Source of the DNA: Deltaproteobacteria bacterium
GTDB lineage: Bacteria > Desulfobacterota > Deferrimicrobia > Deferrimicrobiales > Deferrimicrobiaceae
Direction of reading: 5' to 3'
Assembly: GCA_016219515.1 (NCBI GenBank)
Contig: JACRMU010000002.1
Span: forward strand, 1 to 32,051
Length of the DNA: 32,051 nt
A program made the position numbers and the translations under genes. The notes beneath the pieces were generated by a model. That model was not told the DNA's origin and did not search any database. It saw only the letters and a program-made list of their open reading frames with translations. Shown here piece by piece: positions 16,689 to 22,302 of this stretch. Position 1 is the stretch's first letter. The number at the start of each line of letters is the position of its first letter.

Positions 16689-16767
16689 CCAGTCAGATGC
16701 GATTAATGAATAGACGGTTTATCCATACGATAAAATACGGTTTCCGTTGGGTTTCGGAGATCCTTTA

Positions 16768-17433
16768 TTGAGAGTTTTTCTCTTTTCTCTCGCAGGGATA
16801 CCTCTTCTCATCCTGTTCGGCATCCTTCTCTACGGCTTCCCGGCGCAGGCGGCGGTCCTGTACACCAGGGAGGAGGGCTGGATCCTCCTGGGAGGAGCCG
16901 CGCTGTACCTCGTCACGCACGCCGTCATCAGGAAGCCCGAAAGGATGTACCTCTGGGCCCACGAGTTTTCCCATCTGATCGCGGCCAAGATTTTCCTGCG
17001 GAAGGTCCATTCGTTCCACATCACGTCCCGCGACGGCGGGAAGGTCGTGATCGACCGCACGAACGTGGTCATCGACCTTGCGCCGTACATCTTCCCCCTG
17101 TACAGCTTGGCCGCGGGGTGCGCTGCGGTTCTCCTGCGTTCCGCTTCCCCGTGGGTTCCCGACGTCTACCTTGCCCTGGCCTCCTTCCTGTTCTCCATGC
17201 ACCTCCTGTTCTCGGCGGAAGGATTTTTCAAGGGACAGCCGGACGTGAAGAGGAGCGGCCGCCTCTTTTCCGGAGCGGTCGTGTTCTTGTCGCTTATGTT
17301 ATGGATCCCCTGCCTGCTGGCCCCGGGAACGGCCGCCGGATGGAAGGGGGCCGTCTCGGCGTACAAGGGGTGGTTTTCCGCGTCGGTGGCCGACGCGCGC
17401 AGGCTATTTCTGTACGGACGTTCCTTTTTTTAG
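16768..17433 (+). CDS. Putative membrane-embedded HEXXH metalloprotein (M50-like)
   Basis: Polytopic membrane protein of 221 residues with about five hydrophobic segments. H65-E-F-S-H69 follows the second hydrophobic stretch, as in membrane-embedded M50-type zinc proteases, and DLAPYIFPLYSLAAG around 105-120 could supply the loop seen near the third ligand in such enzymes, but I find no clear NPxxDG motif. TTG 16768 is chosen over an in-frame TTG at 16747 because GGAG lies eight bases upstream of it. It is monocistronic, and its last 30 bases overlap the convergent thioredoxin-like gene. The family is uncertain, and the protease role is a hypothesis. Confidence 0.7.
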   Translation: MRVFLFSLAGIPLLILFGILLYGFPAQAAVLYTREEGWILLGGAALYLVTHAVIRKPERMYLWAHEFSHLIAAKIFLRKVHSFHITSRDGGKVVIDRTNVVIDLAPYIFPLYSLAAGCAAVLLRSASPWVPDVYLALASFLFSMHLLFSAEGFFKGQPDVKRSGRLFSGAVVFLSLMLWIPCLLAPGTAAGWKGAVSAYKGWFSASVADARRLFLYGRSFF

Positions 17434-17979
17434 ACCGGCAACGGCGGCATCGAAGTTCCGGATCATTTCCCGCATCCCTTCCGCAACGTAGACCGCCCGA
17501 ACCGTCCCGCCCCCGTCCACCAGCACGGCCGTCGGCGTCTTTTCGACTCCATACGGATCCGACGCGATGAAGAAATCGCCGCGGAGATCGTCGTAAAGGA
17601 CCGGGTAGGCGATGCCGGAATCCCTTGCGAACGCCTGCACCGCATGCGAAAAACGTTTCCCGTCGAGGTTCACGCTCACGACCCGGACCGATCCGCCGTA
17701 TCGCCGGGCGATGTCGTTCAGGAACGGGGTCAGTTCGCGGCACAGCGGGCAGAAGGCGGACCAGAACACGACCAGCGAGGGCTTCCTGCCTTCCGGCCGA
17801 AAGGAGACCCGCTTCCCGTCGATGTCCGAAAGGGCGAATGCGGGCGCCTTTTCCCCGGGACGGAGAAGAGGCCTCAACGCCGTCTGCCGGGAGTCCGACG
17901 CGGCGAAGGAGAATGAGCCCGCGGACAGAAGGAGCGCGAGGAGTGCCGCTCCGGCGACCCGGACCGGAGATGTCGGCAT
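17404..17979 (-). CDS. TlpA-like thioredoxin-fold protein, periplasmic
   Basis: A 191-residue protein with a signal peptide (hydrophobic 8-27, AxA-like site near FAAS) and a TlpA/ResA-type thioredoxin fold: KAPAFALSDIDG, active site C77-P-L-C80 preceded by FWSAF, and the cis-Pro motif KTPTAVLVD. Such proteins reduce periplasmic disulfides, often the CXXCH thiols of apocytochrome c before haem attachment. It is the last gene of the operon with the multihaem cytochrome, starting two bases after its paralogue. The 3' end overlaps the convergent membrane gene by 30 bases. Confidence 0.88.
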   Translation of the reverse strand: MPTSPVRVAGAALLALLLSAGSFSFAASDSRQTALRPLLRPGEKAPAFALSDIDGKRVSFRPEGRKPSLVVFWSAFCPLCRELTPFLNDIARRYGGSVRVVSVNLDGKRFSHAVQAFARDSGIAYPVLYDDLRGDFFIASDPYGVEKTPTAVLVDGGGTVRAVYVAEGMREMIRNFDAAVAGLKKGTSVQK

Positions 17980-17981
17980 CG

Positions 17982-18500
17982 CTACCTCCCCAGGCGGATC
18001 GCCGTGATCACTTCGGCGATGTTATCCTGCGACGCCCAGTAGTAGTTCGGTTCCGCGAAGCGGACCACTCCCTTCTTGTCGAGAATGACGCTGGTCGGGA
18101 GGGCATTGATGCAGAAGCCGTTCCATGCCTCCAGGTTCTTGTCGAGGAGCACGGGGAAATCGATTTTCCACTCCTTGAGGGTGCTCCGGATCCGCTCGAT
18201 ATGCGCCCGGGAGATGTTCTGGCTTTCCTGGTTGATGGCGACGACGACGATGTCCGGGCTCGTCTTGTAGACTCCCTGGAGGAAGGTCAGCTCCTCCTCG
18301 CAGCGGGGGCACCACGATGCCCAGAAGGCAAGAAGGACGATTTTCCCGCGGAGCTCGGAGAGCGAAAGCGTTCCCCCGTCGAGCTTCGGAAGACGGATGT
18401 CCGGAACATCCTTCCCCACCTCCACGCAGAGCGAATGGGCGGTCGGGGCGAAGAACGCCAGCGCAATAATGCAGGCGAGAGATGCCGCGATGCGTTTCAT
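17982..18500 (-). CDS. TlpA-like thioredoxin-fold protein, periplasmic
   Basis: A 172-residue paralogue of the next gene: signal peptide MKRIAASLACIIALAFF followed by THS, DVPDIRLPKLDG, active site C64-P-R-C67 in the WASWCPRC context, and cis-Pro NALPTSVILD. The ATG at 18500 is preferred over an upstream in-frame start because it begins a canonical signal peptide and has AAGGA about nine bases before it. It begins five bases after the cytochrome stop. Two tandem thiol oxidoreductases behind a 12-haem-motif cytochrome suggest service in its maturation or a linked thiol redox step (inference). Confidence 0.88.
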   Translation of the reverse strand: MKRIAASLACIIALAFFAPTAHSLCVEVGKDVPDIRLPKLDGGTLSLSELRGKIVLLAFWASWCPRCEEELTFLQGVYKTSPDIVVVAINQESQNISRAHIERIRSTLKEWKIDFPVLLDKNLEAWNGFCINALPTSVILDKKGVVRFAEPNYYWASQDNIAEVITAIRLGR

Positions 18501-18505
18501 GTCGT

Positions 18506-20050
18506 CTACGTTCCTTTCGCGGGAGTGGGATGGCACCTGTAACAGATGCTACGGAAATCCGGCGCGGGGAGAAAGTCGTTTTTCGCCATCGATTCCCCGG
18601 GAAGGTAGCGATGATCATGGATGGTGACCTCCCCGTTCCGGTCGCGCGCGGGAGGATGGCAGGACAGGCAGGGGGTGCTCTCGATCCCTTGACGGGAATG
18701 GCCCCGCGGCGGAGGGAGGACCGTCCCGTCGTGGCAGGAAAGGCAGAATTCCTGCGCCGTCATCTTCTTCGGCCCGTTGCTTGCCGCTTCCTTCCGCCCG
18801 ACCCGGAAATTCTTGCAGAGGTCGCACGTTTCGCCTTCCACGAGGAGCATCCGGGAGCGCCAGAAGAGATACTGGGCGTGGCGGTCCGCGTAGCTGTCGT
18901 TTCCCTTGAAGGAAGCGTCGTCCTGCCCGGGCTTGGGCGTCAGCCCCTGGAAGTACTGCCGCAGGTCCGCCCCGGGGATGAACCCGACGGGGAAGCTGTA
19001 TTCGCCGGTCGCGTCGTGGCCGGTGGTGTGGCACGACTCGCAGATCATGGAGCGGCGCGGCTCGGAGAGTTTCCCGGGGTGCACGATGTCGGCGGCGCTC
19101 GCGGTGGAGGCGTGCTTCTTCCCCGGCCCGTGGCACGCCTCGCAGCCGATTCCCTCCTCCGAATACTTGCGAAGGTAGGGGTTGTACCCGGTGGTATGGC
19201 AGCCCGCGCACGATCTCAGCCAGTCCATCTCCCGCCAGTACATGAGATTCCACTTTTTCGAGCGGACCAGCCAGATGGGGGTGCGGACCACCAGCGCGTC
19301 CCCCTTGCGGCTGATGAACCTCTGGACGTTCCTGCTTCCTATGACGTAGGCGATTTCGGAGGAGAGCAGGGGAGAGGATTCCGTGAACTGCGCGAGCACG
19401 GCGTCCGGGTTCCTGCGCGGATTGCGCAGCATCCTCGCGTGGGCGGTGTGTTCCCACCGGCGGTACGCCTCCGGGTGGCATGATGCGCAGGCCCTTGCCC
19501 CGGCATACTGCGCGGGATCGACCGCCGCAACATCGACGCGGGACTTCATGTTCCGGAGCCGGTGGCAGGATTCGCAGATCTCTCCGGCGGGGCTGGGAAT
19601 CCGCAGGAAGTACGTCCGGTACTTTCCGGGGAGGAACGGGAAGGCGGCATCCCTTGCCTTCTCGAACAGCGTGCGGCCCGTGTGGCGACGGTTGGAGAAG
19701 GCGGGTGCGTGGGGGGCATGGCACGTGATGCACGTCATGGTGCCGTCGATGTCCAGTGGGAGGTCCTTCCCCCGGCCGCTTCCCGGTGCGATGTCGACGG
19801 GGTGGGCGATCTGCGAAGGATGGCAGGAGACGCACAGGCTGTAAATGTCCTTCCGGAAGTTCATCATCGCGTACGGGCGGCCCGCAGCGGGCCGGTTTTC
19901 CATGTGGCATTCGCCGCAGCGGGCGGGATCCTTCATGAAAGCATGCGGATTCGCGGAATTGGAGGCGTCGGTCCGCCACCACGCGAACGCCGCGTAGAAT
20001 GCGGCATACGCGGCGAACGCCGCAACGACGAGCAGCGCCTTTCGGATCAC
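18506..20050 (-). CDS. Multihaem c-type cytochrome with 11 CXXCH and one CXXCK
   Basis: A 514-residue exported or membrane-anchored cytochrome: N-terminal hydrophobic anchor (5-25), then CXXCH motifs at residues 45, 73, 107, 159, 188, 281, 303, 337, 436, 461 and 503, and CDLCK at 409-413. Thus up to 12 c-haems, one with Lys as the candidate proximal ligand, as in the catalytic haem of NrfA-type nitrite reductases. The segment ACASCHPEAYRRWEHTAHA resembles cytochrome c554-type domains. Start is GTG at 20050, overlapping the HAMP-like gene by four bases. It is followed by two thioredoxin-like genes. It could be a nitrogen- or sulfur-compound reductase or an electron conduit; the substrate cannot be read from the sequence. 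Confidence 0.9.
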   Translation of the reverse strand: MIRKALLVVAAFAAYAAFYAAFAWWRTDASNSANPHAFMKDPARCGECHMENRPAAGRPYAMMNFRKDIYSLCVSCHPSQIAHPVDIAPGSGRGKDLPLDIDGTMTCITCHAPHAPAFSNRRHTGRTLFEKARDAAFPFLPGKYRTYFLRIPSPAGEICESCHRLRNMKSRVDVAAVDPAQYAGARACASCHPEAYRRWEHTAHARMLRNPRRNPDAVLAQFTESSPLLSSEIAYVIGSRNVQRFISRKGDALVVRTPIWLVRSKKWNLMYWREMDWLRSCAGCHTTGYNPYLRKYSEEGIGCEACHGPGKKHASTASAADIVHPGKLSEPRRSMICESCHTTGHDATGEYSFPVGFIPGADLRQYFQGLTPKPGQDDASFKGNDSYADRHAQYLFWRSRMLLVEGETCDLCKNFRVGRKEAASNGPKKMTAQEFCLSCHDGTVLPPPRGHSRQGIESTPCLSCHPPARDRNGEVTIHDHRYLPGESMAKNDFLPAPDFRSICYRCHPTPAKGT

Positions 20051-20646
20051 GCGGTTCCCGGATCGAGGGTCTGCGAGGCCTCGCGGAGGCGGACGACCAC
20101 CTCCAGCGATTTTTCCAGCGCGGCCCGTTCCTCCGGCGGGAGGGGGATCAGGAGAAACTTCGACTGCAGGTCCTGCGCCAGCAGATCCGCGGAATGGACC
20201 AGCTCCTGAACGGCGACGATCCGCTCCCGGTTCGCCTGCAGCGCGGACCGGTACGATTCTCCCAGGCCGTAGAACAGGTCGCCGTTGCGGAAGTGGAAGT
20301 CGGTTCCGAAGTATCCGGCCTCGAGGCGGGAAATGAGGACGTTGAACTTATAGATCGGTCCGCCGAGGCGATGCGATTCCCGAAGGGCGAGAAGGAGTGT
20401 GGTCCCGATCGTCAGGAAAAAGGAGATCCCGCCGCTGATCAGCACGGCGGGAAAGAGGATCTGCCACGTGTTGCGCAGCCGGAGGTGGACGCTGTAGAAG
20501 CTGCGGCCGAGCTCTTCATCCGTAAGGTAGTAGAGGAGAACGCAGAGGAGAAGGGTCCCCACGGCGCAAACGGAGCCGACCTTCAGGAGAAACGGCCCCT
20601 GGGTCCGGATGTCGATCAGATACTTTCGCCGTTTTTGATTTCCCAT
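20047..20646 (-). CDS. Two-helix membrane protein with HAMP-like region
   Basis: A 199-residue protein with a basic N-terminus, membrane helix 1 (about 20-42), a short external loop, membrane helix 2 (about 62-88), a HAMP-like segment (GPIYKFNVLISRLEAG through GDLFYGLGESYRSAL) and a C-terminal coiled-coil-like tail to the end. There is no kinase, GGDEF or methyl-accepting output domain. ATG 20646 has GGGGGAA ahead. It is first in the operon and overlaps the cytochrome by four bases, so the two products are likely made together. It may be a signalling adaptor or a membrane partner of the cytochrome; the function is unknown. Confidence 0.75.
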   Translation of the reverse strand: MGNQKRRKYLIDIRTQGPFLLKVGSVCAVGTLLLCVLLYYLTDEELGRSFYSVHLRLRNTWQILFPAVLISGGISFFLTIGTTLLLALRESHRLGGPIYKFNVLISRLEAGYFGTDFHFRNGDLFYGLGESYRSALQANRERIVAVQELVHSADLLAQDLQSKFLLIPLPPEERAALEKSLEVVVRLREASQTLDPGTA

Positions 20647-20704: not shown

Positions 20705-20731
20705 TAAACTTTTCGGCGGATTTGGCGTAAA
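20705..20731 (+). promoter_or_regulatory. Possible sigma-28-like promoter
   Basis: TAAACTTT (20705-20712), 11 bases, GGCGTAAA (20724-20731). Compared with the flagellar sigma-28 consensus TAAAGTTT-N11-GCCGATAA, 7 of 8 and 5 of 8 bases match at the right spacing. It points to the GGDEF gene. The match in the second element is modest and chance is possible. Confidence 0.25.
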
Positions 20732-20763
20732 ATTTACCAGAATGTAACGGAGAATCGTCCAAC

Positions 20764-22302
20764 GTGAAAATGTCGCTCTGGAAAAGACTTAGAGCTCCCG
20801 GTCGCAAGAGCGATCTTGTCATGGCCGTCGTCCTCATCCTCATTTTCATTTCCTTCGAGTTTTCCGACCGATCCTCCGCGGAAGCCGTAAGGCATTGCGT
20901 GACCGCATTCGGGTTCATCTGGATGTACCTGCGGTACATGAAGCCGGCCGATTACTCCGTGGATCTTCTTTCCGACACGATGAAGAAGCACGGGGAGGCG
21001 ATTCCGTCCGGATCCGACCCCCTGGCGGCGGCCGATGCGACCAAGGAATGCCTGGAACGTTTCGCGGCGGAGGTCGCGCACCTGCAGCAGGAACGGCAAT
21101 TGTTGAAGGACCAGCGTCTCATCGAGTTGGCGAAGATGCATCAGGACCTGATCACGCACCACCGGTGCACCAAGAAGATGTTGGGTTCTTTCCGCACCGA
21201 GGAGGTGTTCGACGCCCTCCAGAAAGGGGTGAGGGACGGGCTCGGGTTCCAGGGAGCGGCGCTCGGGGTGATCGACCGGGACGGATGTCTCGCGTTCCAT
21301 GAGGAATTCGATATCGCCACCGGTCCGTCGGTGGCCCGCATCCCCGCATGGGACGAGGGATCGCTGCTCGCGAACGCGTTCTGGAGCGGGAATTCCATCC
21401 TGTCCCAGTCGCTGGCGGAGCATGCGTTCTGTCCGGAGGACAAGACCGTGATCGGGGAAGGCCCTTTCTTCCTTCTCCCCGTTTCCCGGAAGTTGGTGGG
21501 GAAATGCTCAGAAGTGAAGAGCTGCGGGAACGTCGATTGCACCGCGTTCCTTACAAGGAACAGTCGCTGCTGGGTGGACCATTACGACGACTGCTTCGCC
21601 AACGCCGCCCTCCCCGCCACGGAGCGGCGGAAGGCCTGCGTCCTGTGCGAAATGTTCTCGCCGACCGCGCTGCTGGCGGTGCGCACCCGGGAGGAGTCCA
21701 GGAAAATATCGAGGGAGACGGTCGTCCCGGTCGTCACCCTCGTGAACGAGGCCTCCATGGCGCTCGAGGTGGTGGAGCTCCACGAAAACATGAGGAAGAT
21801 GTCGATCACCGACGGCCTGACCGGTTTGTACAACCACCGGGAGTTCTACCAGCAGCTGCGGCGGGAGCTGGAAAGGGCGCGCCGGTACCGCCATTCCGTC
21901 TCCCTCCTCCTCATCGACGTCGACGACTTCAAGAGGTTCAACGACAGCTACGGGCACCTCGCGGGCGACCTGGCGCTGCGGAAGATCGCCGACATGCTGC
22001 GAAACTGCGCGCGCGCCACGGACGTCGTGGCGCGGTACGGGGGAGAGGAGTTCGGGGTCATCCTTCCGGAATCGACCTCCGCCGGCGCCCTCATGTTGGC
22101 GGAGCGCATCAAGACGGAAGTGGGGAAGCACGATTTTCTCCCCCAGGTACCCGGGGAAGTCCATCTCACGGTCAGCATCGGAATCTTCACGGCGGAGGAG
22201 GGGGCCGCGACGGAGGACCAGCTCGTCCGCTACGCCGACGAGGCCGCCTACAGCGCGAAGAGCGCCGGGAAGAACCGCGTCGTGGTCAAGTCCCATGCTT
22301 GA
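20764..22302 (+). CDS. Membrane diguanylate cyclase with Cys-rich GAF-like domain
   Basis: A 512-residue signalling protein: two N-terminal hydrophobic helices (about 18-32 and 43-58), a coiled coil (95-135), a GAF-like domain (about 140-340), and a C-terminal GGDEF domain with the active motif GGEEF (426-430), metal motif IDVDDFK and an intact inhibitory RATD I-site five residues before GGEEF. It should make c-di-GMP from GTP. Inserted in the GAF-like part are seven cysteines (248, 254, 259, 269, 277, 292, 295), suggesting metal, Fe-S or redox sensing. Start is GTG 20764 with GGAG upstream; an ATG lies two codons in. It overlaps the dGTPase gene by eight bases. Confidence 0.92.
   Translation: MKMSLWKRLRAPGRKSDLVMAVVLILIFISFEFSDRSSAEAVRHCVTAFGFIWMYLRYMKPADYSVDLLSDTMKKHGEAIPSGSDPLAAADATKECLERFAAEVAHLQQERQLLKDQRLIELAKMHQDLITHHRCTKKMLGSFRTEEVFDALQKGVRDGLGFQGAALGVIDRDGCLAFHEEFDIATGPSVARIPAWDEGSLLANAFWSGNSILSQSLAEHAFCPEDKTVIGEGPFFLLPVSRKLVGKCSEVKSCGNVDCTAFLTRNSRCWVDHYDDCFANAALPATERRKACVLCEMFSPTALLAVRTREESRKISRETVVPVVTLVNEASMALEVVELHENMRKMSITDGLTGLYNHREFYQQLRRELERARRYRHSVSLLLIDVDDFKRFNDSYGHLAGDLALRKIADMLRNCARATDVVARYGGEEFGVILPESTSAGALMLAERIKTEVGKHDFLPQVPGEVHLTVSIGIFTAEEGAATEDQLVRYADEAAYSAKSAGKNRVVVKSHA

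Follow-up and report, generated by a model that had tools for sequence, protein, structure and literature searches.

A conserved four-gene unit encoding a HAMP-like membrane protein, an 11-haem cytochrome and two thioredoxins, and its possible role in redox signalling

Introduction

Why would the gene for a multihaem cytochrome be accompanied by genes for two thioredoxins and for a membrane protein resembling part of a signalling receptor? The question is raised by four consecutive minus-strand open reading frames (ORFs) on a 32,051-nucleotide stretch of DNA from a member of the Deferrimicrobiaceae (hereafter the window), which is contig C143 of a 2.09 Mb assembly. Gene 1 (20047..20646, 199 aa) encodes a membrane protein with two transmembrane (TM) helices and a HAMP-like cytoplasmic part, and gene 2 (18506..20050, 514 aa, GTG start) an 11-haem c-type cytochrome. 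Genes 3 (17982..18500, 172 aa, with an alternative GTG start at 18536) and 4 (17404..17979, 191 aa) encode the TlpA/ResA-like thioredoxins 1 and 2, which are predicted to be secreted and have the active sites CPRC and CPLC, respectively. By their ORF coordinates in the window the genes follow one another at spacings of -4, +5 and +2 bases. An initial annotation of the window regarded them as a self-maturing extracytoplasmic electron-transfer system with a membrane adaptor. The analysis reported here establishes that the four genes form a real and conserved unit, and points tentatively to a redox unit in the periplasm that works with haems and a dithiol and is coupled to signalling in the cytoplasm, acting as a split redox sensor or relay. 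This combined reading, whose chances are judged to lie somewhat below even, is supported by the conserved gene order, a haem-free CXXC motif in the cytochrome, an origin from two cassettes, the HAMP matches of gene 1 orthologues, the signalling genes in the neighbourhood and a parallel fusion cassette.

Conservation of the four-gene unit

Close orthologues of gene 1 are present in 7 of the 24 genomes of the family, and at all seven loci gene 1 is followed by the genes for the cytochrome, thioredoxin 1 and thioredoxin 2 (at L040 the last gene runs past the end of the contig stretch). The GTG start of gene 2 overlaps the stop codon of gene 1 by four bases in the window, and the same overlap is found in all seven family members. 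Wider sampling, by a search of the class and a phylum sample of 395 genomes, yielded ten further near full-length relatives of the cytochrome, each of them accompanied by the other three genes in the same order and on the same strand; genes in the AT-richer loci were taken from six-frame ORFs. Order and orientation are thus shared by all 17 loci, which represent 13 genera and seven families, down to identities of 22-54%; the lowest values against the window proteins are 22% for gene 1, 35% for the cytochrome, 35% for thioredoxin 1 and 32% for thioredoxin 2. The pairwise distances of the four proteins are correlated with r = 0.88-0.93, a level reached in none of 2000 permutations. Neighbours that failed to stay together would have spoken against a single unit; because the four genes remain together at all 17 loci this objection fails, and the claim of the initial annotation that they form one unit, with the spacings it gave, is borne out.

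The surroundings of the unit are variable. In the window it lies between a divergent diguanylate cyclase gene and a convergent gene for an M50B-like membrane protein (16747-17433, plus strand), which overlaps the end of the thioredoxin 2 gene (17404-17433). One genus has a glycosidase-like gene upstream and other families have a dus-like gene downstream. The latter, a tRNA-dihydrouridine synthase gene by its N-terminal sequence, is located directly 3' of the last thioredoxin gene in L112-L117 and L119. Two loci (L111, 10968-12476; L112, 10977-12485) from distant relatives encode a protein with 17 haem motifs a few genes downstream of the unit, and in two others (L113 and L119) the unit itself is enlarged by two genes, one for a GAF-GGDEF protein and one for an additional TlpA protein.

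A cytochrome with a haem-free CXXC motif

The cytochrome was initially described as having 12 haem motifs. It is indeed a multihaem protein, with 11 CXXCH motifs; the supposed twelfth, CDLCK at residues 409-413, has no histidine and turns out to be the more informative feature. In the alignment of orthologues both cysteines of this motif are invariant (17 of 17) and the fifth residue is K in 13 proteins, G in two, R in one and N in one, with CDVCG, CEVCG or CDICG found at the equivalent site of paralogues with seven or eight haems. Since the fifth residue varies among the orthologues and is a glycine in the paralogues, CDLC (residues 409-412; 18815..18826, minus strand) is read as a haem-free CXXC and is almost certainly not a haem site. 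C409 and C412 are the sole cysteines outside CXXCH motifs in the window cytochrome, as is the case in many of its relatives. Among those proteins of the fetched loci that contain four or more haem motifs, haem-free CXXC motifs are restricted to this cytochrome superfamily and to TlpA-cytochrome fusions, where the motif is the thioredoxin site; one further case is a signal-peptide string.

The cytochrome is also a composite. In a profile of the 17 cytochromes, the first ~165 positions match small 4-haem cytochromes (E 1e-17 to 1e-25), most of whose genes adjoin one or two genes for HAMP-like two-TM proteins, and gene 1 matches the second HAMP-like protein of these cassettes (E 1e-17 to 1e-23). 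The remainder of the cytochrome matches 7/8-haem cytochromes from cassettes in which two TlpA genes stand between two cytochrome genes (G000 contig 10, L124 and L128, and partial versions). Because the N-terminal part matches HAMP-linked and the rest TlpA-linked cytochromes, a two-cassette origin is indicated: by these profile matches, one cytochrome joins the partners of two separate cassettes in the four-gene unit. The cassette on G000 contig 10 (L045, 375-3802) has the order 7-haem cytochrome, TlpA, TlpA, 8-haem cytochrome, with a haem-free CXXC in both cytochromes. Three-gene cassettes in which a 4-haem cytochrome is joined by two distinct two-TM proteins of HAMP-like type are located at L053 (6496-8134), L055 (6357-7977), L050 (7022-8678) and L051 (4915-6538), of which that of L055 lies near histidine kinase and NtrC genes; a related locus, L054, lies near a gene for a methyl-accepting chemotaxis protein (MCP).

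The HAMP-like protein and its signalling neighbours

The protein encoded by gene 1 consists of two TM helices separated by a short periplasmic loop, with an invariant H54, a HAMP-type helix ('SHRLGGPIYKF') and a HAMP-like C-terminal part. Four of its 17 orthologues match the Pfam HAMP family PF00672 (best 2.3e-6), and its profile extends to the HAMP region of nearby histidine kinases and an MCP (chemoreceptor). An AlphaFold2 model with a mean confidence (predicted local distance difference test, pLDDT) of 75.6 consists of long helices, TM2 being followed by helix 97-109, a loop and helix 126-164. The polypeptide ends after the HAMP-like helices, at 199 aa, and carries no output domain. The initial description of a HAMP-like protein without signalling output therefore holds for the polypeptide; it does not hold for the context, in which an intact diguanylate cyclase gene is divergently adjacent (20764..22302, plus strand; GGDEF match 1.5e-48, GGEEF intact) and signalling genes are common at the other loci.

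A signalling gene is found next to or inside 13 of the 17 units, in three arrangements. Five loci (window, L038, L039, L043 and L110) have an orthologous, divergent gene for a cysteine-rich GGDEF protein, two (L113 and L119) have a GAF-GGDEF gene within the operon, and six (L111, L112 and L114-L117) have a divergent gene for a receiver-LuxR regulator. As the five cyclase cases share other synteny, these represent about three independent arrangements and not thirteen. Among loci without the unit the same signalling types account for 3 of 338 called genes, a figure from biased loci that serves as a rough yardstick.

A parallel arrangement is provided by a second kind of cassette, two copies of which are present in the window genome (L120, 5043-8912; L121, 1-3752). 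It encodes a TlpA protein, a TlpA-decahaem fusion and a membrane protein with GAF and degenerate GGDEF domains, and it is kept in relatives, although only part of it is covered at L178 and the copy at L180 has diverged and lacks the cyclase. All seven family genomes with the unit have a fusion gene, against 1 of 17 without it (Fisher p 2.3e-5); counted by genus, the figures are 4 of 4 and 1 of 7 (p 0.015). Among distant genomes, fusion genes are found in nine of ten with the unit, in all six in which the 8-haem relative occurs alone and in none of nine others. This co-occurrence supports a general functional link between thioredoxins and multihaem cytochromes.

Two features upstream of gene 1 deserve mention. 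The divergent cyclase has a cluster of cysteines ahead of its GGDEF domain (C248, C254, C259, C269, C277, C292 and C295) that is largely kept in five genomes and is possibly a metal or redox site. Between the two genes, an element TAAA-N15-GCCGAAAA (20710..20736, minus strand) precedes gene 1 in three genomes (window, G010 and G011), with a near-match in L039. It resembles a sigma-28 promoter, its copy upstream of gene 1 is the only exact match in the window genome, and that genome encodes a FliA-type sigma factor; in controls with the reversed pattern, family-wide match numbers were of similar order.

A possible split redox sensor

These observations can be combined into a model, the mechanism of which we infer from sequence and gene linkage. 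Judged from hydrophobic segments and charge, the cytochrome is probably exported and anchored in the inner membrane through its N-terminal helix, facing the periplasm, the two thioredoxins would be secreted, and gene 1 would have both termini in the cytoplasm. The sequences fit the extracytoplasmic electron transfer with a membrane adaptor that was proposed initially. The 11-haem cytochrome would carry electrons and hold one haem-free CXXC, which the thioredoxins, through CPRC and CPLC, may reduce, oxidise or read, so that its thiol-disulfide state would become linked to the haem redox state; that the thioredoxins act on this CXXC is slightly favoured. The HAMP-like protein, presumed to be in physical contact with the cytochrome, would then relay this state through the membrane to an output encoded by another gene. 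For the window genome that output would probably be the divergent diguanylate cyclase, and in other families the receiver-LuxR regulator or the GAF-GGDEF protein of the operon. Whether the unit signals through gene 1 is evenly balanced on the evidence of gene linkage. The most specific version, a split transmembrane sensor in which the cytochrome and both thioredoxins, with a haem-free dithiol in common, drive a HAMP-only protein that controls a separate cyclase or response regulator, is more doubtful, with perhaps a third of the probability on its side.

Several points weigh against the combined reading. Four loci, those of one genus and L118, have no adjacent signalling gene, and the linkage to the cyclase is perhaps partly regional synteny, since a neighbouring HD (dgt-like) gene is shared as well (L038 and L110). 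The HAMP assignment is weak: the window protein has no Pfam match, with PF00672 absent even at E <= 10, and a Foldseek search with gene 1 gave no significant hit, the best being an MCP model (E 0.46), with HAMP proteins at E >= 0.46. The association with fusion genes is confounded by phylogeny and cytochrome richness, as genomes with only the 8-haem relative also carry the fusion. The AlphaFold2 model of the cytochrome, built from 17 sequences, reached a pLDDT of 47.8 and was not used, which leaves the exposure of the CXXC and the docking of thioredoxins conjectural.

Alternative roles

The alternative that survives best is plain electron transfer or terminal reduction, by which the unit would be a periplasmic reductase or a disulfide-reducing branch from the quinol pool and the HAMP-like protein a structural or dimerising anchor that does not signal. 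The C-terminal half of the cytochrome places it in the c554 clan (PF13435, 53.5 bits against a cut-off of 20.8), with PF14522 and other multihaem families also above cut-off, and residues ~175-380 align with the structures 6i5b and 6qvm (phmmer 8.3e-16 and 1.9e-15). The TlpA-decahaem fusions suggest direct electron exchange between haem and thiol, and four of the 17 loci lack a signalling neighbour. However, a HAMP-type segment would be an unusual anchor, the signalling genes adjoin most loci and twice lie within the operon, and a membrane GAF-GGDEF protein is encoded in the parallel fusion cassette as well. A purely electron-transferring unit is judged rather unlikely. As regards a conduit of the MtrCAB/Pcc type, no outer-membrane porin was recognised in the unit or among its annotated neighbours, some flanking ORFs being without annotation.

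A role in maturation was part of the initial annotation, according to which the two thioredoxins would reduce the haem-attachment cysteines of the cytochrome in the manner of CcmG, ResA and CcsX, so that the unit matures itself. Both proteins are TlpA-like as described, each with one CXXC and with matches to PF00578/PF08534 (AhpC-TSA/Redoxin) above cut-off, and their active-site cysteines are invariant (thioredoxin 1, 17 of 17 orthologues; thioredoxin 2, 16 of 16). They resemble ResA, DsbE and StoA models, and there is a precedent in SirH, a member of the TlpA family encoded in an operon with a dedicated haem lyase, which helps to mature the multihaem sulfite reductase SirA (PMC6976685). Yet their scores are far below the cut-offs of ResA (82.6 and 68.4 bits for thioredoxins 1 and 2, versus 170) and DsbE (38.9 and 42.8 bits, versus 123). 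The four-gene unit contains no gene for a haem lyase, a thiol transporter or a CcdA/DsbD-like protein. In the window genome ResB and CcsA are encoded on contig 130, beside multihaem cytochromes and two TlpA-TPR proteins, whereas contig 27 carries another ResB/CcsA-type pair; ResB is present in all family genomes that are at least 90% complete, and the window genome has 18 redoxin-domain matches overall. Because the unit lacks a lyase and ResB/CcsA have TlpA proteins of their own elsewhere, the label self-maturing finds no support. Dedicated maturation would furthermore leave the presence of two thioredoxins, gene 1 and the haem-free CXXC unexplained. A maturation role for the two thioredoxins is possible by analogy with SirH of Shewanella (PMC6976685), and as an account of the whole unit it is improbable.

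Thioredoxin-like proteins outside the unit were also noted. TlpA-TPR fusion proteins at L122 (8260-9270 and 10001-11134), next to ResB/CcsA and multihaem cytochromes, are likely the maturation thioredoxins of their genome, and a Redoxin-family match with one in-frame TGA on G000 contig 20 (21121-21432, plus strand) could be a selenocysteine thioredoxin or a pseudogene.

It is very improbable that CDLCK binds a twelfth, lysine-ligated haem and forms a catalytic site. CXXCK is a genuine haem site in the nitrite reductase NrfA (reviewed in PMC6976685) and most of the orthologues have the lysine, but a haem site at CXXCK was rejected on account of the variable fifth residue (K/R/G/N): four orthologues have R, G or N at this position, and the 7/8-haem paralogues have G. 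The unit also has no dedicated lyase. Adjacency of the four genes by chance or regional synteny, to which some syntenic flanking genes within the family might point, is refuted by the 17 loci, at all of which the four genes stay together while flanks differ between groups.

Implications and comparison with known systems

For the largely uncharted way in which metal-reducing and other multihaem bacteria monitor redox conditions in their periplasmic electron-transfer chain, the unit offers a concrete and conserved candidate. If the split sensor is real, haem and thiol redox states would be read together and relayed across the membrane, and the haem-free CXXC is a single pair of residues open to mutation. 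Counting haem motifs from sequence can mask a conserved dithiol, and the TlpA proteins of cytochrome-rich genomes need not all be maturation factors. A literature search, with most subscription papers outside its coverage, found no paper describing the combination of TlpA, HAMP and multihaem cytochrome; in the searchable literature neither the fixed set of four genes nor its haem-free CXXC appears to have been described, and the parts are of known kinds.

The closest relatives on the side of the membrane protein are the cassettes of a 4-haem cytochrome with HAMP-like proteins A and B (L050, L051, L053 and L055), of which the same search found no published description. They share the homologous N-terminal part of the cytochrome and gene 1 with the four-gene unit, unlike which they have neither the 7-haem part with its CXXC nor thioredoxins. 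On the side of the cytochrome, the c554 clan (PF13435) and the structures 6i5b, which we take to be OcwA of Thermincola, and 6qvm are alike in the alignment over residues ~175-380, whereas the unit adds a separate 4-haem N-terminal module, the haem-free CXXC, a fixed pair of thioredoxins and a HAMP-like protein. The thioredoxins share their fold, CXXC, predicted secretion and co-encoded multihaem cytochrome with the CcmG/ResA/CcsX/TlpA group, including SirH (PMC6976685), from which they differ in occurring as two per unit, in scoring below the family cut-offs and in being encoded in a unit that lacks both haem lyase and thiol transporter. NrfA is reminiscent through the CXXCK string found in 13 of 17 cytochrome orthologues, but the lysine is not conserved here, a dedicated lyase is absent from the unit and the domain family is another one. 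In function the nearest parallel may be GSU0582 and GSU0935 of Geobacter, haem-sensor chemoreceptors whose haem state is proposed to drive signalling and which likewise combine a periplasmic c-type haem with a transmembrane receptor (PMC3460858). Each of these is one polypeptide with a single PAS-bound haem and an MCP as output, whereas in the four-gene unit 11 haems are carried by a separate protein and an output domain is absent from the HAMP-like protein.

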